From contig JAEUSY010000023.1 in the NCBI GenBank assembly GCA_016788295.1, forward strand, positions 1 through 64,000: a DNA stretch of 64,000 bases, given 5' to 3'. Under the pieces are notes generated by a model. It searched no databases, was not told the DNA's origin, and worked only from the letters and a program-made list of their open reading frames with translations. The first letter of the stretch is position 1, and the number at the start of each line of letters is the position of its first letter. This DNA comes from Flavobacteriales bacterium (GTDB lineage: Bacteria; Bacteroidota; Bacteroidia; Flavobacteriales_F; PHOS-HE28). Below are positions 6,945 through 42,146 of the stretch, piece by piece. The translations under genes were made by a program, and so were the position numbers.

Positions 6945-7613
6945 ATGAAATTCTTCATCGACACGGCCAGCCTGGCCCAGATCAAGGAAGCGCAGGACCT
7001 CGGTGTCCTGGACGGCGTAACCACCAACCCCTCGTTGATGGCCAAGGAAGGCATCAGTGGCCACGACCGGGTAATGAAGCATTACGTGGACATCTGCAAC
7101 ATCGTGGACGGCGATGTGAGCGCCGAGGTGATCGCCACGGACTACGCTGGAATGATCAAAGAGGGCGAGGACCTGGCCGCATTGCACCCGAACATCGTGG
7201 TGAAAGTGCCCATGACCCGCGATGGCGTTAAGGCGATCAAGTACTTCACCGGCAAGGGCATTAAAACCAATTGCACGCTGGTGTTCAGCGCTGGGCAGGC
7301 CTTGTTGGCCGCCAAGGCCGGAGCCACCTACGTATCGCCTTTCGTGGGCCGCTTGGATGATGTGAGCACTGACGGTGTGCAGTTGATCGAGCAGATCCGG
7401 GTGATCTACGACAACTACGGCTACGGCACCGAGATCCTGGCCGCGAGCATCCGCCACCCCATGCACATCATCCAGTGCGCCGAAGTGGGTGCCGATGTGG
7501 CCACCTGTCCGCTCAGCGCCATCACGGCCCTGTTCGACCACCCCCTCACAACCATTGGGCTGGAGAAGTTCCTGGCCGACCACAAGAAGGCCGCTACGGC
7601 GGTGAAGGCCTGA
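6945..7613 (+). CDS. Transaldolase, TalC/FSA type
   Basis: 222 residues beginning [16 protein letters not shown] and containing GVTTNPSL, the Schiff-base region '[16 protein letters not shown]' and '[31 protein letters not shown]'. These mark the short (TalC/fructose-6-phosphate aldolase-like) transaldolases, which act in the non-oxidative pentose phosphate pathway. The late GADVAT segment and '[17 protein letters not shown]' tail are complete. ATG at 6945 was chosen because the family starts exactly with M(K/R)FF(I/L)DTA; the frame is open further upstream. It runs into the YciO/Sua5 gene after 7 bp. Confidence 0.94.
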
Positions 7614-7620
7614 CCACGGC

Positions 7621-8241
7621 ATGCTGCTGAGCATCCATCCCAAGGACCCCGAGCCGCGGAAGATCCGCATCGCGGTGGAGAAGCTCAACGCCGGTGGAGT
7701 GATCATCTGCCCCACCGACACGGTGTATGCCTTCGTATGCAGCGCCCACCAGCCACGCGCCATTGAACAGGTGGCCAAGTTGAAGGGAGCCAAGCCGAAC
7801 AAGGCCGACCTCTCGTTGATCTGCAACGACCTGAGCCAGTTGAGCACCTACGCCAGGGCCGTGGATACCGCGGCTTTCCGGATCATGAAGCGTGCGCTGC
7901 CCGGACCATACACCTTCATCCTGCCGGCCAGCAGCGAGATCCCCAAGTTGTTCAAGAACAACAAGCGCACGGTGGGTATCCGCGTACCGGACCACCCGAT
8001 ACCGCAAGCCATTGTGGCCGAACTGGGCCACGCCTTGGTGGTGACAAGCGTACACGACCCCGACAAAGTGGTGGACTACACCACCGACCCGGAACGGATC
8101 GATGAACACCTGGGCTATCAGGTGGACCTGGTGATCGATGGAGGTATCGGCGGGCTGGAGGGATCCACGGTGATCGACCTGAGCCAGGGTGAACCCGTGA
8201 TCCTGCGCGAAGGCAAAGGCCCAGTGGAAGACCTCCTCTGA
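7621..8241 (+). CDS. L-threonylcarbamoyladenylate synthase family protein (YciO/Sua5/YrdC)
   Basis: 206 residues of the YrdC fold: 'GGVIICPTDTVYAFVC', 'KGAKPNKADLSLICNDLSQLSTYA', 'LPGPYTFILPAS' and 'KRTVGIRVPDHPIPQAIV'. The family makes threonylcarbamoyl-AMP, the precursor for t6A37 of ANN-decoding tRNAs. The replacement of the usual KxR region by 'KPNKADLS' and the total length point to the YciO branch, whose cellular role is less clear than TsaC/Sua5. It follows the transaldolase closely and probably shares its transcript. The stop abuts the convergent nnr gene. Confidence 0.88.
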   Translation: MLLSIHPKDPEPRKIRIAVEKLNAGGVIICPTDTVYAFVCSAHQPRAIEQVAKLKGAKPNKADLSLICNDLSQLSTYARAVDTAAFRIMKRALPGPYTFILPASSEIPKLFKNNKRTVGIRVPDHPIPQAIVAELGHALVVTSVHDPDKVVDYTTDPERIDEHLGYQVDLVIDGGIGGLEGSTVIDLSQGEPVILREGKGPVEDLL

Positions 8242-9777
8242 TCAGGACCGCAGGTTCCGCCAAGCATCGGGCAGGTGGTCCGCGAGATCACCGCTGGTCA
8301 TTCCATCCATGCCCAACTGCGAAGCGGCCAGGTCGCCAGCCAACCCGTGCAGATGAACGCCCACAACGGCGGCCGCCCAACTGGACATGCCTTGTGCCAG
8401 CAGACCGGTGATGAGCCCGGTAAGCACATCGCCACTACCGCCCTTCGCCATGCCGGGGTTTCCTGTGGCGTTGTAGTGGATGCTTCCATCCGGCGAATAC
8501 ACGGCCGTAGGCGCCCCTTTCAGAACAACAATGCAGCGTGTGCGCCGTGCCAGTTCGACCGTACGTTCCGAACGTTCAGCACTTGAGCGCGAGGGACTTC
8601 CCACCAACCGATCGAACTCCTTTGGATGCGGTGTGAGCACCGACCCGGCAGGCAGGAACGCAAGCCAAGTGGGGTTGGCCGCGAGCAAGTTCAGCGCATC
8701 GGCATCGAATACCACGGGGACCTGCGACTCTTGTATCAATCGCTTGACCACCAAGGAAGTATCGGCATGCGATCCAAGCCCGGGTCCGATCCCGATGGCC
8801 TGGAACGGTTCCAGCTTGGGCAGCCCGGTGATGCGGTCCATAGCGGGGTCGAGATCGCTCATGGCCTCGGGGGCAGCGGTCTGTATCACCTGTTCCCCTC
8901 GGCCAGGTACGCGCGTGGTCACCAATCCGCAACCGCTACGTAAGGCTGCCCGGGTGGCCAATACGGCCGCACCCATGTGCCCACTTTCACCGGCCACCAG
9001 CAGCGCGTGCCCGAAGGTGCCTTTGTGACCTGTTCTTGGGCGCGGCGGCAATAGGGCCAGCACATCAGGGCGTTGGATCACATGCCGTTGCGGGGCGATC
9101 CTGGCAAGGAACCCTTCATCAAGCCCGATGGGCACCACCTCCCAATAGCCCACGTTGGGAGCCTGATCGGCAAGCAACAGCGCCGGCTTGGGCACTTGGA
9201 AGGTAAGGGTGAACGTTGCTTTAACGATCCTGTCGGAGTGATCATTCGAATTCCCATCGGCGAGAAGGCCAGATGGCAGGTCGATGGCGAATACCGGCCT
9301 GCCACTTGTATTGATCCACCGAACGGCTTCAGCAGCGATGCCGGTCATGGTGTCGGTAATGCCTGTGCCGAAGATCGCGTCGACGATAACCTCCTGAACA
9401 TCAATTGCCGGAAATCCGCCGACCTCCACCATATCATGCACCGGAATACCGAGCGCCTCGCAGCGCTTCAGATTGGTGGCATGGTCGGGCGAAGCGTTGT
9501 CGCGGTGCTTCACACGCACCACCCGCACGGGCTGCCCGCGTAGGTGGAGCAGGCGCGCGATCACCAGTCCATCGCCGCCGTTGTTGCCCATGCCCACCAC
9601 CACCAGAAAGGGGGTGCGGACCCGGGGGTCCTTGGGCCAGCGGGCCACATGCCTTAGCAGGTGCGCCGTGCAACGGGTCCCAGCCCGCTCCATCAGATCA
9701 AGCGAACTGATGGGCTCATGGGCGATGGTGTACGCATCGGCCGCACGCATCTGGGTGGCATTGAGGACCGGCAACAT
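8242..9777 (-). CDS. nnr: Bifunctional NAD(P)H-hydrate epimerase / ADP-dependent dehydratase
   Basis: 511 residues with two domains. The N-terminal YjeF_N epimerase domain (about 1-215) has 'VVGMGNNGGDGLVIARLL', 'DAIFGTG' and 'FAIDLPSGLLADG'. The C-terminal ribokinase-like dehydratase domain (about 230-505) has 'HKGTFGHALLVAGESGHMGAAVLA', 'VFDADALNLLA', 'LTPHPKEFDRL' and the active-site loop 'NPGMAKGGSGDVLTG'. Together they repair hydrated NADH/NADPH. The fused form is common in Bacteroidota. It is apparently monocistronic, between the YciO gene (convergent) and pcm (same strand, 56 bp away). Confidence 0.95.
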   Translation of the reverse strand: MLPVLNATQMRAADAYTIAHEPISSLDLMERAGTRCTAHLLRHVARWPKDPRVRTPFLVVVGMGNNGGDGLVIARLLHLRGQPVRVVRVKHRDNASPDHATNLKRCEALGIPVHDMVEVGGFPAIDVQEVIVDAIFGTGITDTMTGIAAEAVRWINTSGRPVFAIDLPSGLLADGNSNDHSDRIVKATFTLTFQVPKPALLLADQAPNVGYWEVVPIGLDEGFLARIAPQRHVIQRPDVLALLPPRPRTGHKGTFGHALLVAGESGHMGAAVLATRAALRSGCGLVTTRVPGRGEQVIQTAAPEAMSDLDPAMDRITGLPKLEPFQAIGIGPGLGSHADTSLVVKRLIQESQVPVVFDADALNLLAANPTWLAFLPAGSVLTPHPKEFDRLVGSPSRSSAERSERTVELARRTRCIVVLKGAPTAVYSPDGSIHYNATGNPGMAKGGSGDVLTGLITGLLAQGMSSWAAAVVGVHLHGLAGDLAASQLGMDGMTSGDLADHLPDAWRNLRS

Positions 9778-9833
9778 GGTGCCCCAAGTTACCGAGCGTC
9801 GCGTCGGTTCAGCTGTCAGCCATCAGGTAGGCG

Positions 9834-10490
9834 TCACTTTGCTTTGTCGCCCAACATGGGCACGAAGCGGAAAGCGCCGAGGTCGCGTTGCTCAAAGGTG
9901 CCGTCGGCATTGCGATCGATGCACAGCATGCGTTGCACATCGCCTTCACCCACGGGGATCACCATGCGACCACCGGGTTTCAATTGGCCCAGCAGATCGG
10001 GCGGCACGAAAGGCGCCCCGCAAGTGACAAGCACCCGGTCAAAAGGCGCTTCCAAGGGTAATCCCTTGTAGCCATCGCCATAGGTAAGGCTGGGCCGGTA
10101 GCCCATGAGGGCAAGACGCTCCTTGGTGCGCAGGTAGAGCGGCCGCTGCCGTTCAATGGAATACACCTTGGCCCCGAGCTCGAGCAAAACGGCCGTCTGG
10201 AACCCGCTGCCCGTGCCGATCTCCAGCACCTTCGTTCCCTTGCCAACCCCGAGCAGCTCGGTCTGGAAGGCCACTGTGTAGGGCTGCGAAATGGTCTGTT
10301 CGCAACCGATCGGGAAAGCCTTATCGGCGTATGCCAGCTCCAGAAAGGCAGAATCGTCGATGAACTGGTGCCGGGGCACCCGGCCGATGGCCTGAAGGAC
10401 CTGTTCGTTGCGAATGCCCTTGGTTCGGAGCTCCTCGACCAGCTTGCGGCGCAGGCCTTGGTGGCGGAATTCGTCCTTGAGCAGGTGCAT
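9834..10490 (-). CDS. pcm: Protein-L-isoaspartate O-methyltransferase
   Basis: 218 residues. It methylates L-isoaspartyl residues using S-adenosylmethionine to start their repair. SAM-binding motif I is 'VLEIGTGSGFQTAVLLELG'; the family-specific 'DSAFLELAYADKAFPIGCEQTISQPYTVAFQTELL' and post-motif 'ERQRPLYLRTKERL' are present, as is 'GGRMVIPVG'. I chose ATG at 10490; an in-frame ATG 12 bp upstream (10502) would overlap the TACTTTTG promoter element at 10500-10507, so it is unlikely to be translated. Confidence 0.94.
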   Translation of the reverse strand: MHLLKDEFRHQGLRRKLVEELRTKGIRNEQVLQAIGRVPRHQFIDDSAFLELAYADKAFPIGCEQTISQPYTVAFQTELLGVGKGTKVLEIGTGSGFQTAVLLELGAKVYSIERQRPLYLRTKERLALMGYRPSLTYGDGYKGLPLEAPFDRVLVTCGAPFVPPDLLGQLKPGGRMVIPVGEGDVQRMLCIDRNADGTFEQRDLGAFRFVPMLGDKAK

Positions 10491-29906: not shown

Positions 29907-31769
29907 TCATGGCCTGATCATGCCCCCGGCCCCTTCCGGGAGTTCCACACGATCGTTTGAGCGGTCGGTGTCGGCAGTGCGCTGCAATGGGTCGATAGTC
30001 ACAGAGACCAGCTTGGCCAAGGTACCTGGCACGGTGAACGTATACTGCGCGTTTGTCCACTGCCATGCAGGCAGCGTGGTGAACGTGTACCTATCGCCAA
30101 CGCTCGGCTTATCGCCACGCATGAGGCTCAGTGGTACGTGGTAATAGTCTGTTCGACCATCGCGGTACTCCAATGCCAGATCCACGGGCATGAGCTGTTC
30201 ACCCTTTCGCGAGATCGTGATCCGTAATGAATCACCCACTTGCAGCACCTCGCGAATGCCCATGTCCAAGGTGCGCGTGGTATTGATCCACTCATCGAAA
30301 TACCAATCGAGCTCCACTCCGCTCTGTTTCTCCATCACACGCTCAAGGTCAATGGGTTCGGGATGCTTGAACTTGCATGCCTCATAATACCGCAGCATGC
30401 CTAGCGCAAGGGTCTTCTCGCCCACCACCGCACCAAGCTGGTGTACGAACAGTTCACCGAAACTGTAGGCAGTGGCCCCGTAGGCCCGGTTCGTATGGAA
30501 ATGATCGGCGTGGATGATGGGTGATTCGTGCTTGCCGCTTTCCACCAGGTCAAGGTACCCTTCAATGGAACCTGCATGTGGGTCTGCTCCATGGGGGAAC
30601 AAGTGTTCCATCACCTTGCTGCCGGCATACTCGGTCATACCCTCGTCCATCCACGCAAAACGGCCTTCATTGGAAGCGAGGACACCATAGTACCAGCTAT
30701 GTACGCTCTCGTGTACGCTAACGCCCACCAGGCTGCCCAAACGACGCTTACCGGTGATCAGGGTGAGCATCGGGTACTCCATACCACCATCCCCACCCTG
30801 GACAAAGCTGTACTGCGGCCATGGGTACTTCCCGAAATGCTCGTTCATGTAGCGGAAACTGCGTTCCATGTAGGCTGGAAGGTCCTTCCACACCGCCTCC
30901 AGTTCGGGTTGGTCCTTGTAGAAGAAGTGCAGTTCCGGTCCGTCGGTCATGGGCAGGATCACATGCTTGAACTCACGATCGGCCGCCCAAGCAAAGTCGT
31001 GCACGTTCTTGGCCACGAAACGCCATGTGAGCTTGCTTCCCGATGGCCGCTTCAACGCTTTCTTGGATGGATAGCCGTGCCCCACCTGCTCGGGGTTCTG
31101 CAACACCCCGGTGGCGGCAACGGTATAGGAACTATCCACGGTCAGCGAAACGTCGAAGTCGCCCCAGACCCCATGGAACTCACGCCCCACATACGGATAG
31201 GCATGCCAGCCGCGGTGGTCGTACTCGGCCAGCTTGGGATACCATTGGGTCATGCTGTACGCCACCCCTTCGGTATTGTCGCGACCGGTGCGGCGTATCT
31301 GCACAGGCACCTGGCCCTTAAGGTCGTAGGCCAGCACGGTCGAACGGCCGGGCAACAGTGGTTTCGGCAGTATGACCTTCAGCACCGTGCCCATGGGGAC
31401 CAAGGTGGCGGGCTTGCCTTCCTGTTTCAGCCCAAGTACCTGCAGGTCACCCACTTGGTCCGCGGTTAGTGCGGCAATGCGGTCACCCACTCGTGGATCA
31501 GGGTCTTCGATGGACCGCGAGCGTACGTCCATTTCGCTGTTCGGCTTGAACGCATTGAGATAGAGGTGAAAGAACACTTCGCGCAAGGTGTCAGGGCTGT
31601 TGTTCGTGTATTGGAGCAACGCCGCACCCGTGAACTGATGGCTGTTGTGGTCCAGGTCCACGGCCATGGTGTACTTCACGCGCTGCTGCCAGCGATCGCA
31701 CTGGGCATTGGCCAGTAGTGAAAATGATGACGCGAGCACAAAGGCTCCGGAACGGAGGATCGAAAGCAT
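29907..31769 (-). CDS. M1-family metallopeptidase, exported
   Basis: 620 residues. Signal peptide MLSILRSGAFVLASSFSLLANAQ. The gluzincin zinc site is H353-E-S-V-H357 with the third ligand Glu376 in 'WMDEGMTEY'. The substrate-binding motif GxMEN appears as GGMEYP (about 329-333). An N-terminal beta-domain ('AVDLDHNSHQFTGAALLQYTNNSPDTLREVFFHLY') is typical of the family. Probably a periplasmic or cell-surface aminopeptidase; no T9SS sorting domain is present. The ATG at 31769 gives the signal peptide; the frame continues upstream to 31931 without support. The terminator of the response-regulator gene sits between its promoter region and that gene. Confidence 0.93.
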   Translation of the reverse strand: MLSILRSGAFVLASSFSLLANAQCDRWQQRVKYTMAVDLDHNSHQFTGAALLQYTNNSPDTLREVFFHLYLNAFKPNSEMDVRSRSIEDPDPRVGDRIAALTADQVGDLQVLGLKQEGKPATLVPMGTVLKVILPKPLLPGRSTVLAYDLKGQVPVQIRRTGRDNTEGVAYSMTQWYPKLAEYDHRGWHAYPYVGREFHGVWGDFDVSLTVDSSYTVAATGVLQNPEQVGHGYPSKKALKRPSGSKLTWRFVAKNVHDFAWAADREFKHVILPMTDGPELHFFYKDQPELEAVWKDLPAYMERSFRYMNEHFGKYPWPQYSFVQGGDGGMEYPMLTLITGKRRLGSLVGVSVHESVHSWYYGVLASNEGRFAWMDEGMTEYAGSKVMEHLFPHGADPHAGSIEGYLDLVESGKHESPIIHADHFHTNRAYGATAYSFGELFVHQLGAVVGEKTLALGMLRYYEACKFKHPEPIDLERVMEKQSGVELDWYFDEWINTTRTLDMGIREVLQVGDSLRITISRKGEQLMPVDLALEYRDGRTDYYHVPLSLMRGDKPSVGDRYTFTTLPAWQWTNAQYTFTVPGTLAKLVSVTIDPLQRTADTDRSNDRVELPEGAGGMIRP

Positions 31770-31780
31770 GCCGCAAAGAA

Positions 31781-31805
31781 AAGGCGGGCCATGTAAGCCC
31801 GCCTT
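31781..31805 (-). terminator. Terminator of the lone response regulator gene
   Basis: Perfect 9-bp stem AAGGCGGGC / GCCCGCCTT with a 7-nt loop, 22 bp after the stop at 31828 on the minus strand and followed by TTCTTTG. Nearly the same hairpin occurs at 38786-38811. Confidence 0.75.
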
Positions 31806-31827
31806 CAGGTTGATAGTCAGGGTATGT

Positions 31828-32316
31828 TCAGGACAACAGGCGCTGTCGCAGGGCGAACTCCAACTGTCGGTTGGCGTCCTCCAACCGTTGTGTATAGGCC
31901 GTGCGGTCCTCTTCGGCCTTGATCTCCTCATAGGCTTGTTCCACGGCCTTTACGAGATGTTCGTTGATCCAAGGCTTGGCGAAGTACTTCGTCACCCCAC
32001 CACTGTTTATCGCTTCAATTATGGCTTCCAGATCGGCATAGGCGGTCACCAGCATACGACGCACGTGTGGGAACCGCTCCCGTACCAGTGAGAGCAATTC
32101 ACTGCCCCGGGTGCCCGGCATGCGTTGGTCGGCGATCACTACGTGTACCGAGTGAGTGGACAGCAGCGACCATACCTCTTCGAGGTTCGATGCCGTGTGT
32201 ACCTCCATGGCATGGCGGAACGCAGCCTTGAAGGCCTGACGGTTACCCGCATCATCGTCAACAAAGACCACAGAAGGTCGTGCGGCTTCGAGGGGAAGGA
32301 TCTTCGCAGTGTTCAT
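31828..32316 (-). CDS. Single-domain response regulator
   Basis: 162 residues. A REC domain with acidic pair D20-D21/D22 (VVFVDDDAGN), phospho-acceptor Asp63 (IADQRMPG), switch Thr (MLVTAYAD) and Lys in 'FAKPW'. The C-terminal ~30 residues form a coiled coil (EEDRTAYTQRLEDANRQLEFALRQR), with no DNA-binding or enzymatic output domain. The REC domain closely resembles that of the REC-PAS-kinase at 36550 (both have DQRMPG, ERFP, YADLEA, KPW). It diverges from the E1-like operon and may be a phosphate shuttle for its kinases. ATG 32316 is preferred to a TTG at 32358. Confidence 0.88.
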   Translation of the reverse strand: MNTAKILPLEAARPSVVFVDDDAGNRQAFKAAFRHAMEVHTASNLEEVWSLLSTHSVHVVIADQRMPGTRGSELLSLVRERFPHVRRMLVTAYADLEAIIEAINSGGVTKYFAKPWINEHLVKAVEQAYEEIKAEEDRTAYTQRLEDANRQLEFALRQRLLS

Positions 32317-32388
32317 GACGATGCGGATTTGGTCCGGCGGTTCGTACGCATCGACCAATGGAAGGTTTCAAAATAAATTGTTGAAAAC

Positions 32389-32418
32389 TTGTTAATAAGT
32401 CGAGGTTGACTACATTCG
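32389..32418 (+). promoter_or_regulatory. Promoter of the E1-like/acyltransferase/kinase operon
   Basis: TTG (32389-32391, part of CTTG) and TACATTCG (32411-32418) are spaced by 19 nt, the standard Bacteroidota -33/-7 distance, within an unusually AT-rich stretch (32365-32400). The ATG of the first gene follows 41 nt later. Confidence 0.65.
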
Positions 32419-32459
32419 CCTCCGCAGGGCTACTTGGACCGTGACTCTGCGACCTCAAA

Positions 32460-33614
32460 ATGACCTCTAAGCTGCAAGCGCTTTCGCGCGCTTCGGCAAC
32501 CGACCGAGACAGCTACCGGCCGGAGTTCTTCCGCTCGAATTCGGCCTCCGACCGGGCCCGAATGGACGAACTGCTGAAGCGCGAACCCCAAGTACAGGTG
32601 TTCGACCAGTTGCACGGGCAATTGACCGAACTCGTGCGCTCGCTCAACCCTTCCATCCGTTACACACGGGAGGAATTGGATGTTGCGGCCCAAGCGCATC
32701 TTCAGGGTGCTCCTTCAGAGGATTACGGCGTGTGGGTCTTCTACCCCTGGTCGAACCGCCTGGTCCATTTGCTGGACGAGGCCGAATTCGCACTTGTACG
32801 CACCGACCGCAACCGGAACAAGATCACCCGGGAAGAGCAAGCCCTGCTCGCCACCAAGAAGGTGGGGGTCATTGGCCTCAGCGTGGGCCAGAGCGTGAGC
32901 CTCACCATGGCCTTGGAGCGCAGCTTCGGAGAGATCCGTCTCGCCGACTTCGATGCGCTTGAGCTGAGCAACCTGAACCGGATACGAAGTGGCGTGCATA
33001 ACCTCGGCGTAAGCAAGGTGGTGAACGTGGCCCGCGAGATCGCCGAGATCGACCCCTTCCTGAAGGTCAATTGCTTCCACGAAGGCATCACGCGCGAGAA
33101 CATCGACCGTTTTCTTACAGAAGGTGGCAACTTGGATGTTCTGGTGGAGGAGTGCGACAGTGTGGACGTGAAGATCTATGCCCGTCAGCGTGCCAAGGCC
33201 CTGCGCATCCCGGTGATCATGGACACCAGCGACCGAGGGCTTATCGATGTGGAGCGCTTTGACCTGGAGCCGGAGAGGCCCCTTTTACATGGTCTACTCG
33301 AAGGATTGGACCTCAGTCTCGTGGAACGACCGATGACCAATGCAGAGAAACTCCCGTTCATGGGACATATCGTGGGCATGGCAACGATAAGTGATCGCAT
33401 GAAGGCCTCTCTTCATGAATTGGGGAGAACGATCATCACATGGCCGCAACTGGCCAGTGGCGTGGTCCTCGGCGGATCCATTGTTGCTGAGGTATACCGT
33501 AGGATCATGTTCAACGAACTCAAATGCTCAGGCCGTTGGTGGAATGACCCCGCCGATTCCATTGCCCCGACCAAAGGCATGCATACCGAACTCTCAACTA
33601 CATCCAAGACCTAA
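32460..33614 (+). CDS. ThiF/E1-like adenylating enzyme (Rv1355c-like)
   Basis: 384 residues. An N-terminal helical region of ~130 residues precedes an E1/ThiF Rossmann domain. The nucleotide loop is 'VGVIGLSVGQSVSLTMALE', followed by 'RLADFDALELSNLNRI' (Mg/ATP aspartate and the SNLNR motif), 'GVSKVVNVAREIAEIDPFLKV' and 'LVEECDSVDVKIYAR' in place of the usual DxxD-N loop. No zinc-binding CxxC pairs and no obvious catalytic cysteine were found. It most resembles the Rv1355c group, but the nitroreductase half usual in that group is absent. It likely activates a carboxylate with ATP. It begins a plus-strand operon with the acyltransferase-like gene 11 bp downstream. Confidence 0.8.
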   Translation: MTSKLQALSRASATDRDSYRPEFFRSNSASDRARMDELLKREPQVQVFDQLHGQLTELVRSLNPSIRYTREELDVAAQAHLQGAPSEDYGVWVFYPWSNRLVHLLDEAEFALVRTDRNRNKITREEQALLATKKVGVIGLSVGQSVSLTMALERSFGEIRLADFDALELSNLNRIRSGVHNLGVSKVVNVAREIAEIDPFLKVNCFHEGITRENIDRFLTEGGNLDVLVEECDSVDVKIYARQRAKALRIPVIMDTSDRGLIDVERFDLEPERPLLHGLLEGLDLSLVERPMTNAEKLPFMGHIVGMATISDRMKASLHELGRTIITWPQLASGVVLGGSIVAEVYRRIMFNELKCSGRWWNDPADSIAPTKGMHTELSTTSKT

Positions 33615-33625
33615 CCCGTGCTGCC

Positions 33626-34375
33626 ATGGAAAAGATCACGCTCCGTGCATTCCAAGCACCAAGTGAACCAGAGCTCTGTCAGGAATTCCTGAAAGAGCAT
33701 CGTCGCGTCCTCGAGGATTTCGGCATCCAGAACGTTAGCACGAACACCGATTCATGGATGTCCGACCCGAACGCCTATATCATCGTGGCACTGCACGACA
33801 CGCTGGGAATGGTGGGCGGCATTCGTCTGCAGATCGCCTCGAAGACCGACCCACTCCCCATGGAAGAGGCCATTGGAAAGTTGGACCCCAAGGTTCATTG
33901 TGCGCTGTCAGAACTACAGCCCCATGGCAATGGCGAGGTGTGCAGCCTCTGGAATGCCAACCGCTATGGTCACATGGGAGTACCGATCCTGCTCAGCCAA
34001 GCAGTAACGGCCATGGCCACCATGGCCAATGCCAAACGAATGGTGTGCTTGGTAGCGCACTATACGAAACGTCATCCTAGCAGGAACGGCTTCATTGTCA
34101 TGGAAGACCTTGGAGACCAAGGTGTGTTCAGCTACCCGATACCGTCCATTAAGGCGATCGCCATGGTCAATCCTGATACCATGACCTTGCCACATGCCAC
34201 GAACTCGCAAAGGCAGTTGATCTACAGTATTCGTCTCCGGCCCAAGCAAGTGCGCATTGAAACGCCCAACAGCACGCCGATCGAGGTCCACTATGATATG
34301 TGCCTTCAGACGAACATCCTGGACCTCCATGCTTACCAGAGCATTGAATCAGACAAGTTGAGCCAGGTAGGTTAA
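33626..34375 (+). CDS. LuxI/FeeM-like N-acyltransferase candidate
   Basis: 249 residues, no signal or membrane segment. The layout recalls the acyl-homoserine-lactone synthase fold: 'EFLKEHRRVLEDFGI' near the N-terminus, then 'DSWMSDPNAYIIVAL', 'GMVGGIRLQIAS' (an RL strand as in LuxI), 'SELQPHGNGEVCSLWNANRYG' (where LuxI has E..R), an alanine-rich helix 'AVTAMATMANAKRMVCLVAHYT' and 'FIVMEDLGDQGVFSYPIPS'. The assignment is by pattern only and could be a more distant GNAT. It sits between an adenylating enzyme and a sensor kinase, suggesting that the two enzymes make something the kinases sense. Confidence 0.55.
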   Translation: MEKITLRAFQAPSEPELCQEFLKEHRRVLEDFGIQNVSTNTDSWMSDPNAYIIVALHDTLGMVGGIRLQIASKTDPLPMEEAIGKLDPKVHCALSELQPHGNGEVCSLWNANRYGHMGVPILLSQAVTAMATMANAKRMVCLVAHYTKRHPSRNGFIVMEDLGDQGVFSYPIPSIKAIAMVNPDTMTLPHATNSQRQLIYSIRLRPKQVRIETPNSTPIEVHYDMCLQTNILDLHAYQSIESDKLSQVG

Positions 34376-34414
34376 AGGAGAACCCGACCGGGGCACTTTG
34401 CGTATCAGCGCGCA

Positions 34415-36553
34415 ATGTTGCCCAAGATCACACTCTTTTGCCTTGTCCTTTGCCTGCCATTTCACGGCAGGTCTCAACCTGAGCATTGGTTCAATCCACT
34501 TCAACACGGAGCCTACATTGGCAAGGACCTTGAGGTATTGAAGGACTTGTCCGATGAATTGACCATTGACGATATTGTCGGTGCAGATGGTTTTATCCGG
34601 TCCACTTCGGATGTACCCAACCTTGGACTATCGGCCGGCACTCACTGGGTCAGGTTCAAGGTTGCGAACGGCTCAAGCCAGAGCGATCTTGTCCTCAATA
34701 TTGCTCATGCTGATATCGACCTATTGGAGGTTTACTCGACCGGTCCCGACCAAGAGCATCAACTGATCGGAAGGTCCGGCCTTACGATCAGTTCCGAAAA
34801 TCGCGTACACAGGGATGCTGAACATAGTTTTAACTTACATCTATCGCGAGATGGCTCAACAACCATCTACCTGAAGGTCAGGAGCAACAAGCAGCTCCAG
34901 TTGCCTGTCTGGCTGACCACATCAGCGCAATATTCCCAAGACCGCAGCAAGCGCAACCTCATCCTGGGAGGCTACATCGGCATCATGCTCGTCATGGCGT
35001 TGTACAACTTCTTCATCTTCCTTTCGATGAGGGACAAGAGCTACCTGCTCTATGTCCTCTACATACTTTCCGTAGCGCTCACACAACTCGCATTTGCTGG
35101 GGTTGCGCCGTTCTATTTCTGGCCGGAATGGACCTGGTTCGCACCCAAGGCTACTGTGCTATTGACCATTGCCACTGCAGTACTCGCATCCGAGTTCCTC
35201 ATCGTCTTCATTCAGACCAAGGCCATTATCCCTAAACTCCATAAAGGGGTCCGCTATTTCTATATGACCCTTGGTCTCTGCGTCGCCCTTGAGGTAATGG
35301 AATTCCCGTTCCTAGCGTACAAGGCTACCCAGGTCATATCCGGAGCATTCGCGACCTACATGATCTTCATGGTGTTCATGGTTTGGAACAAAGGATCACG
35401 GCAAGCAGGTTATTTCCTGATCGCATGGTCGGTCTTCCTTGTAGGCACAGTAATGTTCGTAATGAAGGACATGGGCTTCCTCCCGTACAACTCATTCACA
35501 CTGTACACCATGCCCCTCGGCTCCGCCATCGAAGGCGTGCTCCTCTCCTTCGGTCTGGCCGACCGCATCAACATCCTGCGCCGCGAAAAGGAACGGTCGC
35601 AGGCGGAAGCACTCACGGCACTGCAGGAGAACGACCGTCTGGTGCGCGAACAGAACGCACTGCTGGAGGACAAGGTGAAGCAACGCACGGCGGCCTTGCA
35701 GGAAAGCAATGAGCATTTGAAGCGCACCCAGGCACAGCTGGTAAGTGCCGAGAAGATGGCCTCGCTCGGTCAACTGACCGCAGGCATTGCGCACGAGATC
35801 AACAACCCGATCAACTTCATCACGAGCAATATCGCACCCTTGCGTCGCAACATCGGGGAGATCGTGGATGTGATGGAAGCCTACCGCCGCGTAACTCCGG
35901 AACAGGCAGCTGAACAGCTCACCGCGCTCAAGGCACAAGAGCAAAGGCTTGGCATTCAGGAATCGATCGATGAACTCGGCGATATCATTAATAGCATCGC
36001 CGAGGGTTCCTCGCGCACGGCGGAGATCGTACGCGGCCTGCGCAACTTCTCGCGTCTCGACGAATCCGACCTGAAGGATGCCGACCTCAATGAAGGCCTC
36101 CGCAGTACGCTCGCAGTATTACAACCCCAGTTCAAGGACAAGGTTGAGTTCGGCCTTGAACTTGGCGATCTTCCTAAAGTAGAGTGCTTCCCAGGCAAAG
36201 TGAACCAGGTGTTCATGAACGTGCTGACCAATGCGGCACAGGCTACCATGGAACGCATGGAAGGCCGGGCACGGAAGGTCAACGTGACCACGCGCCAGCT
36301 GGACGATGCCGTGGAGATCGCCATCCACGACACCGGCGTAGGCATGACACCGGAAGTAAAGCAGCGCATTTTCGACCCCTTCTTCACCACCAAACCCGTA
36401 GGCGAAGGGACCGGCCTTGGCCTCGCGATCGTGTTCGGCATCATCGAGGACCACCATGGCCAGATCACCGTGGAAAGTGAGCCCGGTGTAGGCACCACCT
36501 TCCGCATCATCCTACCTATCCGTCAACACCGCCTGCAAGAACTGCGCGCATGA
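34415..36553 (+). CDS. 7TMR-DISM sensor histidine kinase
   Basis: 712 residues. Signal peptide to about residue 20. A periplasmic beta-sandwich of 7TMR-DISM extracellular type 2 spans about 25-175 ('GLSAGTHWVRFKVANGSSQSDLVLNIAHADIDLLEVYSTG'). Seven membrane helices follow at about 180-380. A coiled coil runs from 388 to 440. The HisKA domain has phospho-acceptor His460 (LGQLTAGIAHEINNPINFI), and the HATPase domain has 'NQVFMNVLTNAAQAT', 'DTGVGM', 'FDPFFTTKPVGEGTGLGLAIV'. The extracellular domain family is thought to bind small ligands such as carbohydrates. Its TGA overlaps the ATG of the next kinase, so the two are translationally coupled. Confidence 0.93.
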   Translation: MLPKITLFCLVLCLPFHGRSQPEHWFNPLQHGAYIGKDLEVLKDLSDELTIDDIVGADGFIRSTSDVPNLGLSAGTHWVRFKVANGSSQSDLVLNIAHADIDLLEVYSTGPDQEHQLIGRSGLTISSENRVHRDAEHSFNLHLSRDGSTTIYLKVRSNKQLQLPVWLTTSAQYSQDRSKRNLILGGYIGIMLVMALYNFFIFLSMRDKSYLLYVLYILSVALTQLAFAGVAPFYFWPEWTWFAPKATVLLTIATAVLASEFLIVFIQTKAIIPKLHKGVRYFYMTLGLCVALEVMEFPFLAYKATQVISGAFATYMIFMVFMVWNKGSRQAGYFLIAWSVFLVGTVMFVMKDMGFLPYNSFTLYTMPLGSAIEGVLLSFGLADRINILRREKERSQAEALTALQENDRLVREQNALLEDKVKQRTAALQESNEHLKRTQAQLVSAEKMASLGQLTAGIAHEINNPINFITSNIAPLRRNIGEIVDVMEAYRRVTPEQAAEQLTALKAQEQRLGIQESIDELGDIINSIAEGSSRTAEIVRGLRNFSRLDESDLKDADLNEGLRSTLAVLQPQFKDKVEFGLELGDLPKVECFPGKVNQVFMNVLTNAAQATMERMEGRARKVNVTTRQLDDAVEIAIHDTGVGMTPEVKQRIFDPFFTTKPVGEGTGLGLAIVFGIIEDHHGQITVESEPGVGTTFRIILPIRQHRLQELRA

Positions 36554-38097
36554 ACCTGAACATCGACAACCGTATCCGTGTGCTCTTCGTGGACGACGAA
36601 GAGGGCAACCTCAAGGCATTCAAGAGCACGTTCCGTCGAGATATGGACGTGCTGCTGGCCATGTCCGGCAGTGAAGCTTTGGAGATCCTGGAACGCGAGA
36701 CCGTCCATGTGATCATTTCGGACCAACGCATGCCGGGCATGACGGGCGATGCCTTTCTGGCCGTTGCCAAGGAACGCTTCCCAAAGGCCATGCGCATGCT
36801 CCTTACAGGTTATGCGGACCTTGAAGCCGTGGTCTCCGCAGTGAACCAAGGGGGCATTTACGCATACGCCACCAAGCCGTGGGACGAGAACGACCTGCGC
36901 CTGCGCATACAGCAAGCGTACGAGATCCAACAACTGCGCGAATCCAAGGAACATTTGTTGAACCAATACCAGCAGGTGTTCGAGGTATCCGGCGACCCCA
37001 TTGTGATCGTCGACCACAGCGGCCGGCTGATCGACGCCAACCCAGCATGTGCCAAGCTCCTCGGCAATGACCTGACTGAACTTCGCGGCATCACCTTCAC
37101 CGATTACTTGGAGGACCCCAAGGCACTGGTCCAGTCATTACGTTCCAAGCGAAAAGGGAACGCGTTCATCAACGTGGACCTGACCCTACGCCTCCCCGAA
37201 GGAAGTGTTATCGACTGCCTCATGACCGCTACCTACCTGGGCCATCAGCGCCAAGGCCGTCAACTGTTCCAAGCGGTGATCAAGGACGTTACCGACCGTA
37301 AGGAAGAAGAGAAACGCCTTCGCCAGTTGAACGCCCAACTGGACCAACGTGTGAACGCGCGCACCGGCCAACTGCTGGAGGCGCTGGAGGACATCGGCTC
37401 GTTCTCCTACACCGTGGCGCATGACCTTCGCTCACCGCTCAAGAACATCGCGGCCATGAGCGAAATGCTTCGTGCACAAATGCAGGATGCCAGTGGCGTG
37501 GAGGAATTCGCCGAATTCGCTGAGCGGATCCACCGCAGCTCCGAACGCTTGCTCGAACTGGTGGATGACCTGCTCCGCTTCTCGCAGACCAACACCCGCG
37601 AGATGGAGAAACGCGAACTGGACCTGCACGAGTTGATCGGCACGGTGATCCGCGACCAAGTGTCTGAGGACAGGAAAGAACAGATCTCCGTGGATATTGA
37701 ACAGGACGTGAAGATCATGGCGGATGCCCCCATGTTGAAGGTGGTGTTGCACAACCTGTTGTCCAACTCGCTCAAGTTCACCCGTACCCAGGAACGCCCC
37801 AGTATCACCATCGGACACCGACGTGAAGGGGAACGTGACATCCTTTTCGTTCGAGATAACGGCGTGGGCTTCGATGCCCGGCACAAGGACAAGGCCTTCG
37901 GCGTGTTCAAGCGGTTACATGGCAGCGATCAGTTCGAGGGCACTGGCGTAGGCCTGGCCATCGTGCACCGGATCGTCTCGAAACATGGCGGTGAGGCTTG
38001 GGCGGAAAGCGCTGTGGGCGCTGGTGCCACCATCAGTATTGCGTTACCACGCCATGCGTCCAGTAAAGAGTTCGCACCGTTCATCAAGGTGGCATAA
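36550..38097 (+). CDS. Hybrid REC-PAS-histidine kinase
   Basis: 515 residues, cytosolic. An N-terminal REC domain has Asp58 (IISDQRMPGMTG) and 'TKPW'. A PAS domain covers about 140-250 ('QVFEVSGDPIVIVDHSGRLIDANPACAKLLG'). A coiled coil leads to a HisKA domain with His291 (SYTVAHDLRSPLKNI), then HATPase ('LHNLLSNSLKFT', 'DNGVGFD', 'GTGVGLAIVHRIV'), resembling phytochrome-type kinases. Because REC comes first, it can take phosphate from the 7TMR kinase encoded immediately upstream (ATGA overlap at 36550-36553) and relay or modulate it. No DNA-binding output is present, so the final target is unknown. Confidence 0.92.
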   Translation: MNLNIDNRIRVLFVDDEEGNLKAFKSTFRRDMDVLLAMSGSEALEILERETVHVIISDQRMPGMTGDAFLAVAKERFPKAMRMLLTGYADLEAVVSAVNQGGIYAYATKPWDENDLRLRIQQAYEIQQLRESKEHLLNQYQQVFEVSGDPIVIVDHSGRLIDANPACAKLLGNDLTELRGITFTDYLEDPKALVQSLRSKRKGNAFINVDLTLRLPEGSVIDCLMTATYLGHQRQGRQLFQAVIKDVTDRKEEEKRLRQLNAQLDQRVNARTGQLLEALEDIGSFSYTVAHDLRSPLKNIAAMSEMLRAQMQDASGVEEFAEFAERIHRSSERLLELVDDLLRFSQTNTREMEKRELDLHELIGTVIRDQVSEDRKEQISVDIEQDVKIMADAPMLKVVLHNLLSNSLKFTRTQERPSITIGHRREGERDILFVRDNGVGFDARHKDKAFGVFKRLHGSDQFEGTGVGLAIVHRIVSKHGGEAWAESAVGAGATISIALPRHASSKEFAPFIKVA

Positions 38098-38156
38098 GGG
38101 CAATATGTAACCATTTCCCGGCCACTCCCGTAACACGACCTGAAACATCACCAACC

Positions 38157-38726
38157 ATGAAACAACGTACCCGCACCCTCGTACTGAAAGCACCCGGTTT
38201 CAGCCAGGAATGGTTGCTGCGCGGGTTCCTCTTGATCGGCACCTTGGGCATGGCCGCTATGCTGTTCGCCCAAGGTCGGCTCGTAGACCAGCGCGACCAG
38301 GCCGAAGGTTGGTATCTCCCGGTTCACGGCCACGTAATGATCGATGGCAAGAACGCCGAGGGCTTTGAACTGACCTTGTACAAGGACAACCAGCTGATCG
38401 GACCCGTGAAGCCCGGCAAGAAGGGCAAGTTCGAGCTGAGCCTGGACATTGACCAGATGTACACGCTCGTAGTGACCAAACCGGGCTACGAGATGAAAGT
38501 GATCTACATCGATGCCAGCCTGCCCAAGGACCTGGTGACCTACCCTGACTACGAGTGTTTCCTAAGCCTTGTACCGGTGAACGCACGCAACATCGATCCG
38601 TTCTACACGGACTTCCCCGGCGCCATAGTCCGCTGGAACCCAGAAATGAAAGGGTTCTACCACAGCGAACACTACCTCTCACACATCCAAACGCGGTTGG
38701 CAGGTTATGCCACTGCCACCTTCTAA
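38157..38726 (+). CDS. Membrane-anchored beta-sandwich protein, stand-alone form of the giant protein's N-terminal domain
   Basis: 189 residues. A basic N-terminus is followed by one hydrophobic helix (about 20-39, 'LLRGFLLIGTLGMAAMLFAQG'), a signal or anchor. The rest is a carboxypeptidase-regulatory-like domain: 'GHVMIDGKNAEGFELTLYKDNQ', 'GKFELSLDIDQMYTLVVTKPGYEMKVIYID', then 'IDPFYTDFPGAIVRWN'. Read side by side, it matches residues 35-165 of the 1397-residue protein at 19138-23331, including the order YK...GK.E..LD...Y...K.GY..K.I.ID...P. It follows the kinase pair by 59 bp and ends at a strong terminator, so it may belong to the same operon. Confidence 0.75.
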   Translation: MKQRTRTLVLKAPGFSQEWLLRGFLLIGTLGMAAMLFAQGRLVDQRDQAEGWYLPVHGHVMIDGKNAEGFELTLYKDNQLIGPVKPGKKGKFELSLDIDQMYTLVVTKPGYEMKVIYIDASLPKDLVTYPDYECFLSLVPVNARNIDPFYTDFPGAIVRWNPEMKGFYHSEHYLSHIQTRLAGYATATF

Positions 38727-38836: not shown

Positions 38837-39940
38837 TCAGTGCTGGTCGTAGTCCACCACCACGCGTGCACTTCGGGGGTGCGTCTGGCAGGTCAGCACG
38901 TAGCCATCGGCCACCTCATCATCGGTAAGGGCGTAGTTCATGGCCATCTCGACCTTGCCTTCCACCACGCGGGCCTTGCACGTGCAGCACACGGCGCCTT
39001 TGCAGGCATAAGGCACATCGAGCCCAGCGTCCAAGGCCACATCCAGAATGGCATCGCCCTTTGCCGCGATCTGCAGCTCGTGTTCGCGACCATCAATGAT
39101 CACCTTCACGTTGGCCATACCGGAGAAATCCGAGGTTGAGCCGTGGGAATGGTCGGCCTCTTTTTTTGCTTCCGGAGAGACCGGCGTGGTGAAAAGCTCG
39201 ATGTGGATGTGCTTCTTGTCCACCCCGGACGCCTCCAACGCTTCGCTCACGTTCACCATCATCTGCTCGGGTCCGCAGATGAAGAACTCCTTGTCGAGCC
39301 CATCGGTAACGAACCGGGCCAGCAATTGGCGGGCCTTGTCGGTTGTGATGCGGCCGTTGAACAAGACATCTTCGTCCATGCCCTTGGAAAGGATATGGTG
39401 TACGGCCAGCCGTTCGCCATACTGGGCAGAGAGTTCCTGTAAGCGTGTGCGGAAAATGATCCGATCGGTATCGGTATTCCCGTAGAATAGGGTGAAACGG
39501 CTGTTCGGCTCGATGCGCAGCACGGTCTTCAGGATGCTGAGGATCGGCGTGATGCCACTACCGGCGGCGAAGGCCACGAAATGGCGGGAGCGGGACGCCT
39601 CGAGCGGAGTGGTGAAGCTACCCATCGGGGTCATCGCCTCGATGTGCATTCCCGGCTTCAGCTTTTCCACAAGCTGTGTGCTGGCGCGTCCTCCGGGAAC
39701 CCGCTTCACAGCGATACGGAGATGGTCAACGTCCAGCGGGGAACTACAGATGCTGTACGACCGACGCAGCTCCTCACCGTTCACGGTAAGCTTCAGTGTA
39801 ACGTATTGGCCATGCGAGAACCGGAAATCCTCACGCAGCTCAGCGGGGACCCTGAAGCCGACCACAATGGCATCAGGGGTCTCCTGGTGAACACTTTCAA
39901 CTTCAAGGGAATGGAACCGGGCCATGCGTTGGGTTGTCAT
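38837..39940 (-). CDS. paaE: Phenylacetyl-CoA epoxidase reductase subunit
   Basis: 367 residues. It supplies electrons from NADPH to the di-iron PaaABC(D) oxygenase. The N-terminal FAD domain has 'LRRSYSICSSPLD' (RxYS), the NAD(P) domain has 'FAAGSGITPILSILKTVL', and the C-terminal plant-type [2Fe-2S] ferredoxin has 'PYACKGAVCCTCKARVVEG' plus a distant Cys in 'YVLTCQTHP', that is C-x4-C-x2-C plus one more. It is transcribed divergently from paaABCD, unlike the usual co-linear order. ATG 39940 follows a TATTTTCG box at 39949-39956; an ATG five codons in is possible. Confidence 0.94.
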   Translation of the reverse strand: MTTQRMARFHSLEVESVHQETPDAIVVGFRVPAELREDFRFSHGQYVTLKLTVNGEELRRSYSICSSPLDVDHLRIAVKRVPGGRASTQLVEKLKPGMHIEAMTPMGSFTTPLEASRSRHFVAFAAGSGITPILSILKTVLRIEPNSRFTLFYGNTDTDRIIFRTRLQELSAQYGERLAVHHILSKGMDEDVLFNGRITTDKARQLLARFVTDGLDKEFFICGPEQMMVNVSEALEASGVDKKHIHIELFTTPVSPEAKKEADHSHGSTSDFSGMANVKVIIDGREHELQIAAKGDAILDVALDAGLDVPYACKGAVCCTCKARVVEGKVEMAMNYALTDDEVADGYVLTCQTHPRSARVVVDYDQH

Positions 39941-39948
39941 TGGGGCGG

Positions 39949-39956
39949 CGAAAATA
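39949..39956 (-). promoter_or_regulatory. -7 element TATTTTCG of paaE
   Basis: TATTTTCG on the minus strand, 8 nt upstream of the paaE ATG; same box as at 10540 and 15642. Implies a near-leaderless transcript. Confidence 0.5.
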
Positions 39957-40050
39957 GGGGTATGTACCTGAGCGGGACCTGACGTGAACCACGAAGCCGC
40001 CCGGATCGTTCATTCCTGACACGGATCAGTTCTACTCCACTGCCCCCCTC

Positions 40051-40058
40051 TATCTTAG
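40051..40058 (+). promoter_or_regulatory. Possible -7 element of the paaABCD operon
   Basis: TATCTTAG, two bases off TAnnTTTG, lies 17 nt before the paaA ATG. No operator-like repeat for a PaaR/PaaX type regulator was recognised in the 135-bp paaE-paaA gap. Confidence 0.3.
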
Positions 40059-40075
40059 CCACCCAAGAGAACGCC

Positions 40076-41017
40076 ATGACGGACGTAAAGAACCTTGAAG
40101 AGCTCTTTCAATCCAAGATCGACGCAGAGCAGAAGATCGAGCCGAAGGATTGGATGCCGGAGAAGTACCGCAAGACCCTCATCCGCCAGATCAGCCAGCA
40201 CGCGCACAGCGAGGTGGTGGGCATGCTGCCCGAGGGCAACTGGATCACCCGTGCCCCGAACCTGCGCCGCAAGGCCATCCTGCTCGCCAAGGTGCAGGAC
40301 GAGGCGGGTCACGGTCTTTACCTGTACAGCGCCTGCGAGACACTGGGCGTTTCCCGCGAGCAGACCATCGACGACCTTCTGAGCGGCAAGGCCAAATACA
40401 GCAGCATCTTCAACTACCCCACCCTCTCCTGGGCCGACATCGGTGCCATTGGCTGGTTGGTGGACGGTGCGGCCATCATGAACCAAGTGATGCTGTGCCG
40501 CACGAGCTACGGCCCCTACGCCCGCGCAATGGTGCGGATCTGCAAGGAGGAGAGCTTCCACCAGCGCCAGGGCTACGAGATCATGGCCGTGCTGGCCAAG
40601 GGCACACCCGAGCAGAAGGAGATGGCGCAGGACGCGCTGAACCGTTGGTGGTGGCCCAGCCTGATGATGTTCGGCCCCACGGACGCCAACAGCCCGCATA
40701 GCGCCGAGAGCATGAAATGGAAGATCAAGCGCCAGAGCAACGATGAACTGCGCCAGACCTTCATCGACCGCACGGTGCAGCAGGCAGAAGTGATCGGCCT
40801 GAGCATCCCCGATCCCGACCTGAAATGGAACGAAGCCACCCAGCATTACGACTGGGGCACCATCGACTGGACGGAGTTCAACAATGTGGTGGCCGGCAAT
40901 GGTCCCTGCAATAAGGAACGCCTGGTGGCCCGCAACAAGGCCCACGACGAAGGCGCCTGGGTGCGCGAGGCTGCGCTGGCCCACGCCGCCAAGAAGGCAA
41001 AACGCAAAGCCGCTTGA
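40076..41017 (+). CDS. paaA: Phenylacetyl-CoA epoxidase catalytic subunit
   Basis: 313 residues. The di-iron oxygenase that epoxidises the ring of phenylacetyl-CoA. The two metal-binding EXXH motifs are E76-A-G-H79 ([19 protein letters not shown]) and E159-S-F-H162 ([15 protein letters not shown]). '[19 protein letters not shown]' is a family signature. The length matches E. coli PaaA. It is the first gene of the plus-strand paa block; paaB starts after a 61-bp gap that contains an inverted repeat. Confidence 0.96.
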
Positions 41018-41028
41018 TCGAAGCGCCC

Positions 41029-41056
41029 GTAGCGTCGACCCTCAGGGTCGACCTAC
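41029..41056. repeat. Intergenic palindrome, copy 1 (GTCGACC..GGTCGAC type)
   Basis: GTAGCGTCGACC followed by CTCAGGGTCGACCTAC; TCGACCC and GGGTCGA are perfect arms. A second copy with the same GTAGCG lead-in is at 44123-44150. It lies between paaA and paaB. Confidence 0.75.
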
Positions 41057-41078
41057 CATACTGACAGAACCGGACCCA

Positions 41079-41372
41079 ATGAGCAACAACCCGAACAACT
41101 GGCCTCTCTGGGAGGTCTTCATCCAGAGCAAACGCGGCCTGGAGCACAAACACGTGGGAAGCCTGCACGCTGCAGACCCGCAGATGGCCATCGAGAACGC
41201 CCGCGACGTGTATACCCGTCGTCAGGAAGGCCAGAGCATCTGGGTGGTGCCCGCCGGCGCCATCAGCAGCAGCCAGCCCGATGATGCGGCCATGCTCTTC
41301 GACCCCGCCGACGACAAGACCTACCGGCACCCCACCTTCTACACCATGCCCGAGGGGGCCAAGTACATCTGA
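41079..41372 (+). CDS. paaB: Phenylacetyl-CoA epoxidase subunit B
   Basis: 97 residues, the normal PaaB length. It begins MSNNPNNWPLWEVFIQSKRG and has the family's 'LEHKHVGSLHAADPQMAIENARDVYTRR' and 'SIWVVPAGAISSS' segments. PaaB bridges PaaAC dimers in the epoxidase complex and has no catalytic metal site. The start at 41079 is the first ATG after the palindromic repeat; paaC begins 3 bp after its stop. Confidence 0.95.
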   Translation: MSNNPNNWPLWEVFIQSKRGLEHKHVGSLHAADPQMAIENARDVYTRRQEGQSIWVVPAGAISSSQPDDAAMLFDPADDKTYRHPTFYTMPEGAKYI

Positions 41373-41375
41373 GCG

Positions 41376-42146
41376 ATGGCCGCATCCATGAGCCAGCAGG
41401 ACGCCCTCTTCACGTACACGCTCCGCCAGGCGGACGACCTCCTCATCCTGAGCCATCGCCTGAGCGAATGGTGCGGGCACGGACCCGTGCTCGAGGAGGA
41501 CATCGCCCTCACCAACCGGGCGCTGGACCACATCGGCGAGGCCCGCAACCTGTACACGTATGCCGGGCAGGTGGAAGGCAAGGGGCGTGATGAGGACGCC
41601 CTCGCCTACCTGCGCAACGAGCGGCAGTTCGTGAACACCAAGTTGGTGGAGCAGCCCAACGGCGACTACGCGCACACCATCGTGCGCAGCTTCCTGTTCG
41701 ATGCCTACCACCTGCCGTTGGCCGAGGCCCTCACCAAGAGCGCCGATGCCCAGCTGGCCGCCATTGCCGCCAAGGCCGTGAAGGAGGCCCAGTACCACGT
41801 GAAGCACAGCAGCGACTGGCTGATCCGCTTCGGTGACGGCACGGAGGAGAGCCACCGCCGTGCCCAGGAGGCCCTGGACAACCTGTGGACCTACTCCGGC
41901 GACCTGTTCGTGATGGACGCGGTGCACCAGGACTTTGTGAAGGCCGGCATCGCGCCCGACCTCACGAAGATCAAGGCCGCCTTCGACGCCACGGTGGACC
42001 GTGTGTTGGCCGAAGCCACATTGAAGCGCCCCGCCGACGGCTTCATGGCCACAGGCGGCCGCCAAGGCAAGCACAGCGAACACCTCGGCTTCATCCTGGC
42101 CGAGATGCAATACCTGCAGCGGGCGTACCCCGGGGCCGAGTGGTAA
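41376..42146 (+). CDS. paaC: Phenylacetyl-CoA epoxidase structural subunit C
   Basis: 256 residues. Ferritin-like helical protein that partners PaaA: 'YTLRQADDLLILSHRLSEWCGHGPVLEEDIALTNRALDHIGEARNLYTYAG', 'YAHTIVRSFLFDAYHLPLAEAL' and 'AVKEAQYHVKHSSDWLIRFGDGTEESHRRAQEALD' are standard. An ATG at 41388 (MSQQDALF) is an alternative start, close to the usual PaaC N-terminus. It is separated from paaD by a 105-bp gap filled with an inverted repeat. Confidence 0.95.
   Translation: MAASMSQQDALFTYTLRQADDLLILSHRLSEWCGHGPVLEEDIALTNRALDHIGEARNLYTYAGQVEGKGRDEDALAYLRNERQFVNTKLVEQPNGDYAHTIVRSFLFDAYHLPLAEALTKSADAQLAAIAAKAVKEAQYHVKHSSDWLIRFGDGTEESHRRAQEALDNLWTYSGDLFVMDAVHQDFVKAGIAPDLTKIKAAFDATVDRVLAEATLKRPADGFMATGGRQGKHSEHLGFILAEMQYLQRAYPGAEW

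Follow-up and report, generated by a model that had tools for sequence, protein, structure and literature searches.

Does a bacterium that keeps two putative small-molecule enzymes beside a membrane receptor make the very signal that it senses? This question is raised by a block of genes in a 64,000-nucleotide stretch of DNA (the window) from a Flavobacteriales bacterium (assembly GCA_016788295.1, contig JAEUSY010000023.1, positions 1-64,000, forward strand). In this block the gene for a lone receiver (REC) protein diverges from an operon encoding a ThiF-type enzyme, a GNAT-type acyltransferase (AT) candidate, a 7TMR-DISM histidine kinase and a REC-PAS-histidine kinase (Table 1); these open reading frames and domains, as listed in a preliminary description of the DNA, were confirmed. 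That description had proposed an undescribed module for making and sensing a signal. Judged by sequence comparison, we give a probability of about 0.6 to the block being a self-made-signal (quorum-type) circuit, a probable new circuit made of known chemistry. The proposal of a signal-making module is supported by the conservation of the block and by its enzymes, which map to the N-acyl oxazolone pathway and thereby make the word "signal-making" concrete. "Undescribed" holds for the combination of enzymes, DISM kinase and receivers, which was not found in the open-licence papers searched, and histidine kinases go unmentioned in the two open papers on oxazolones; it does not hold for the enzymes themselves, whose likely chemistry is that of the known Trz/Tyz/Oxz pathways.

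The cyclase and the acyltransferase candidate

By its sequence, the ThiF enzyme corresponds to the cyclase portion of Rv1355c/TrzS-family proteins. Domain calls were taken from Pfam and the family call from NCBIfam model NF005901 (Rv1355c family), against which the enzyme scores 480.2 bits (cut-off 476, E=1e-143) over profile positions 4-342 of 722, the match being confined to the N-terminal half of the model. The GLSVG loop and the ECD (D233) and SDRG motifs are intact and align with those of actinobacterial TrzS, the trzS comparison loci having been taken from plasmid records; these are the adenylation motifs of the enzyme that the preliminary description had called E1/ThiF-like. The aspartate D233, located where ThiF has its ATP contact, is a candidate equivalent of the published D217 of M. 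smegmatis.

Rv1355c is the protein TrzS, in which a ThiF cyclase and a flavin-dependent oxidase (FDO) are joined; together with the N-acyltransferase TrzA it makes N-acyl tryptazolones, and the Tyz and Oxz pathways are relatives of this one (PMC12856293, PMC10404671). In TrzS cyclisation precedes desaturation, and the FDO-impaired variant R540A accumulates the saturated ring (PMC12856293). The enzyme of the window ends after the cyclase, without the fused FDO (nitroreductase) domain, and is therefore not a full TrzS; an FDO query against the genome found nothing credible elsewhere (best E 0.58). We therefore predict a saturated product: the AT would transfer a fatty acyl moiety onto an amino acid, and ThiF would activate the carboxylate with ATP and close the ring to a saturated N-acyl oxazolone, which in many relatives the fused oxidase would then desaturate.

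The ThiF/E1 fold also lends itself to another explanation, in which ThiF would activate a protein or peptide in the manner of an E1 (for ubiquitin-like conjugation, defence or peptide modification) and the block would be a regulated protein-modification system; the fold itself and weak PADLOC E1-E2 matches (best E 2e-8) speak for it. However, the best match by far is Rv1355c, a small-molecule enzyme, no E2, protease or carrier protein was seen in the window's block, and ThiF is replaceable by methyltransferases (see below), all of which makes this explanation very improbable. An E1-E2 conjugation or defence system in particular was rejected, because no E2 or deconjugase occurs among the module genes and the PADLOC matches are at the level of the fold only.

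The AT had been described as LuxI/FeeM-like. It has no Pfam match, a PDB sequence search gave no match, and none of 22 members of its family matched the Pfam autoinducer synthase family at E 0.5, so that membership in the LuxI family in the strict sense was rejected. Foldseek searches with the low-confidence AlphaFold model of the AT (pLDDT 52, pTM 0.52) returned mostly GNATs (best E 1.5e-3), and structural re-alignment of this model placed FeeM first (Z 10.5), followed by RpaI (10.0), BjaI (9.8) and LasI. As FeeM and BjaI are the published structural neighbours of TyzA (PMC10404671), the modelled AT appears to have the same neighbours as TyzA. Among the proteins encoded around trzS in Nocardia and Rhodococcus, the two best matches of the AT profile are those of the genes next to trzS, and a profile-profile comparison with the trzS-adjacent gene gave a weak, collinear match that spans 186 columns (P=3.5e-5, at 72% probability). 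From sequence profiles and model together, the AT is probably a diverged N-acyl amino acid synthase of the TyzA/TrzA type. In one module (L155, G740, 7505-8976) the AT is present as two tandem copies.

Conservation of the block and exchange of the finishing enzyme

A profile of the AT family (A2), searched against 395 genomes from 196 genera of the class, matches 76 genomes and 43 genera. Relatives were examined in a congener sample of 27 loci with the AT and in 53 neighbourhoods from other genera, 40 of them from this search and the rest from other searches; some gene absences among the 53 are due to contig ends. The DISM kinase adjoins the AT in 26 of the 27 congener loci, the contig running out in the 27th, and in 52 of the 53 neighbourhoods from other genera. 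The latter also contain the lone REC (47/53), ThiF (44/53) and a REC-histidine kinase (43/53), often without PAS. An NF005901 search of a phylum sample yielded ten more strong or partial ThiF matches, every one in such a block. The relatives were checked for enzymes and kinases lying apart, and the single-module proposal was not refuted. Conservation of the four-gene order had been proposed as a check; the block as a whole is conserved, with a variable internal order in which the AT stands ahead of ThiF in some loci. A ThiF with a distant AT and no kinase was seen once among the 53 (L191, G599, 8004-9877), so the pair can exist without the sensor.

Might the genes be adjacent merely by inheritance, without forming a single circuit? 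Among congeners, synteny extends to the flanks (EF-G-like, M1 peptidase and phenylacetate-degradation genes), as linkage would have it. Outside the genus, however, the block is kept over about 20 families, internally rearranged and without its neighbour, the CarboxypepD_reg-like membrane-anchored protein; the varying gene order argues against mere chromosome-wide synteny, and we find simple linkage hardly credible. The membrane-anchored protein had been counted as part of the module, but it has no match in the 53 neighbourhoods from other genera and is conserved only inside the genus (26 congener loci), and was therefore rejected as a core member.

Within the conserved block the synthase and the receptor are constant and the finishing enzyme is variable. 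The ThiF protein measures about 770 amino acids (aa) with the FDO in most congeners, as against 383-403 aa in the window and three further loci (L043, L044, L065), and 25 of the 53 loci outside the genus have the FDO. To account for this pattern, three or more changes are required on the ThiF tree and a higher number on the AT tree, so the FDO was lost or gained repeatedly. In seven loci ThiF is replaced by a methyltransferase, with AT and kinase retained. Six of these (L072, L163, L167, L168, L171, L178) carry a UbiE-type methyltransferase, dependent on S-adenosylmethionine (SAM), between AT and kinase, and L184 an ICMT-type enzyme. The six UbiE-type enzymes form one family (31-53% identity), and the ATs of their loci are scattered over the AT tree, with five changes of which at least three are forced. 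Methylation at the carboxyl or the ring is possible; a UbiE-like enzyme is also present in a stieleriacine-type cluster (PMC12479983). A constant synthase and sensor with a swapped tailoring enzyme is the pattern expected of a polymorphic signal. Mean distances point to faster evolution of the sensor parts (2.3 and 1.2) relative to the kinase core (0.76), and of the AT (1.28) relative to ThiF (0.83), which counts in favor of a self-made signal.

Proposed sensing and relay, and comparison with known systems

The genome encodes a single 7TMR-DISM protein, the kinase of the block, which consists of a periplasmic DISMED2 domain, a seven-transmembrane (7TM) domain, HisKA and HATPase. Its catalytic histidine (H460 in HEINNP) and that of the REC-PAS kinase (H291 in HDLRSP) are present together with the N and G boxes, and the two genes, described as translationally coupled, share a 4 bp overlap of the REC-PAS kinase start with the DISM kinase stop. 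The lone REC is identical to the REC of this hybrid kinase at 46% over 126 aa in one comparison and 48% over 118 aa in another; no second protein of the genome matches it at E 1e-6, in agreement with the description of the two RECs as sisters. Its start is most likely ATG 32316 (162 aa) and not TTG 32358, homologues measuring 152-164 aa. In some modules an extra small REC protein directly follows the REC-kinase (L106, 13163-13588; L189, 11969-12379).

The absence of a DNA-binding output at the locus was likewise borne out, as both the lone REC and the REC-PAS kinase have no DNA-binding domain. In a self-made-signal circuit, the product would exit the cell or enter the membrane and be sensed by the DISM kinase, from which phosphate would pass to two sister receivers, that of the REC-kinase and the lone REC protein; by analogy with PhcR/PhcQ of Ralstonia, these may act through contact with a protein, either a transcription factor or the synthase, and not through DNA binding. 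The block has no recurring gene for an exporter, a precursor or resistance. A receiver-only output has a precedent in Ralstonia, where phcBSRQ codes for a synthase and a membrane kinase together with a REC-kinase that has no DNA-binding domain and a lone REC resembling the receiver of that kinase (PMC8578825, PMC6989110); PhcQ is reported to work through binding of the regulator PhcA (PMC13320629). This is the closest known architecture, the window likewise having membrane kinase, REC-kinase and lone REC, all without DNA-binding domain, beside a synthase; compared by description, the two would share a likeness of architecture and not membership. PhcB is a methyltransferase whose product is the methyl ester of a hydroxy fatty acid, whereas the window has an AT and a ThiF cyclase instead, and a methyltransferase as in Phc occurs only in some Bacteroidia relatives, always together with the AT.

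In Vibrio the N-acyl synthase LuxM is paired with the membrane kinase LuxN, and the LuxI synthase has a GNAT-type fold. With LuxM/LuxN and LuxI/LuxR the window shares a putative N-acyl transferase next to a putative receptor, the AT having a predicted GNAT-type fold like that of LuxI; it differs in having no LuxR and an AT without an autoinducer-synthase match in Pfam, and no SAM-dependent lactone chemistry is expected. With TrzAS/TyzABC/OxzAB (Mycobacterium, Pseudoalteromonas) it shares the conserved ATP-site motifs, and many Bacteroidia relatives share the fused FDO as well; it is set apart by the absent FDO and the attached 7TMR-DISM kinase, REC-kinase and lone REC. In TrzAS-type Rhodococcus plasmid loci (L115, L119, L120) the trzA-like gene has a GGDEF (cyclic di-GMP) gene as its neighbour, an arrangement also reported for Mycobacterium tuberculosis, and actinobacterial oxazolone loci therefore have another signalling partner. 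On a Streptomyces plasmid (L113, 4959-6757) an oxidase-less ThiF of this family overlaps an ordinary GNAT gene, with a MerR regulator adjacent. The clusters for N-acyl tyrosines (stieleriacines, thalassotalic and kyonggic acids) join an NAS gene to ThiF, a nitroreductase and sometimes a UbiE-like methyltransferase; in contrast to the Bacteroidia block, a kinase is unmentioned there (PMC12479983).

The kinases could instead sense an unrelated external cue, such as envelope stress, polysaccharide or antibiotic, and switch on production of an oxazolone with a role as lipid, antibiotic or stress metabolite, the product itself not being the ligand. The resemblance of DISMED2 domains to carbohydrate-binding folds counts in favor of such an arrangement. 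So do the antibiotic-inducible oxazolone production of proteobacteria and the tie of the tyz locus to oxidative stress (PMC12856293). Yet the kinase stays with the AT through changes of the tailoring chemistry, the locus has no DNA-binding output of its own that could control the operon, and the block holds no other biosynthetic-cluster genes; we regard a kinase blind to the product as unlikely, if by no means negligible.

Several observations weigh against a self-made signal. The case for homology of the AT consists of a weak profile match together with a structural model of low confidence, and oxazolones have mostly been found within actinobacterial cells (PMC12856293). In a mirror-tree analysis corrected for kinase and receiver distances, AT and 7TM domain covary (partial r 0.27-0.35, p 0.0005-0.02), but control pairs covary equally, for example AT with REC (0.43), so this covariation does not single out the matching of ligand and sensor.

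What bacterial N-acyl oxazolones do is regarded as a major unresolved question (PMC12856293), and the conserved synthase-receptor block makes the idea of oxazolones as signals directly testable. On balance we lean slightly towards a wider view, namely that Bacteroidia hold a widespread undescribed class of quorum-type circuits, whose polymorphic signals, read by a co-encoded DISM kinase and a receiver-only relay, are derivatives of N-acyl amino acids (oxazolones with or without desaturation, or methylated variants). If true, this would give natural N-acyl oxazolones their first physiological role, provide Bacteroidota with a common chemical circuit of inherent chemical diversity and account for the repeated losses of the oxidase and swaps for methyltransferases. 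To our knowledge, no quorum system of such breadth is established in Bacteroidota.

Feature coordinates, promoter and flanking genes

Table 1. Features of the block and its upstream region, in window coordinates.
Feature	Position	Strand	Evidence
Lone REC protein, 162 aa	31828..32316	-	Pfam PF00072 E=3e-20; C-terminal helical tail; no DNA-binding domain
Direct-repeat element GTTGAAAAC-TTGTTAATAAG, possible operator	32380..32399	+	Congener conservation; unique in own genome
Operon promoter, TTG (-33) N19 TACATTCG (-7)	32389..32418	+	20/27 homologous intergenic regions
ThiF-type cyclase, cyclase half of Rv1355c/TrzS family	32460..33614	+	NF005901 480 bits; no FDO half
AT, N-acyl amino acid synthase candidate (FeeM/TyzA/TrzA-like GNAT)	33626..34375	+	Profile A2; structure neighbours; profile-profile match
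7TMR-DISM membrane histidine kinase	34415..36553	+	PF07696 E=1e-21; PF07695 E=3e-47; PF00512; PF02518
REC-PAS-histidine kinase, no DNA-binding domain	36550..38097	+	PF00072; PAS; HisKA; HATPase
CarboxypepD_reg-like membrane-anchored protein, genus-level neighbour	38157..38726	+	26 congener loci

The -33/-7 promoter proposed for the operon consists of TTG (32389-32391), a 19 bp spacer and TACATTCG (32411-32418), with one mismatch to the Bacteroidota consensus TAnnTTTG. The pattern TTG-N17..22-TAnnTTTG, with at most one mismatch, is present in 20 of 27 homologous intergenic regions, where mononucleotide shuffles give an expectation of 1.3, and is thus beyond chance. The promoter stands in this respect; the AT-rich element, on the other hand, exceeds a plain -33 box, being a direct repeat, GTTGAAAACTTGTTAATAAG, that is the sole match in its own genome even when two mismatches are allowed. 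In many congeners the repeat is conserved as GTTnAwAAnTTGTTRATAAS, and it resembles an operator specific to this locus more than a general -33 box.

Directly downstream of the block lie phenylacetate-degradation genes (paaE/paaA-like onward, 38837-42146), a position kept in nearly all congeners. On the other side, the longest M1 peptidase open reading frame (29907-31931) overlaps the lone REC gene, and the true peptidase start is probably an internal ATG that precedes a signal-peptide-like stretch.
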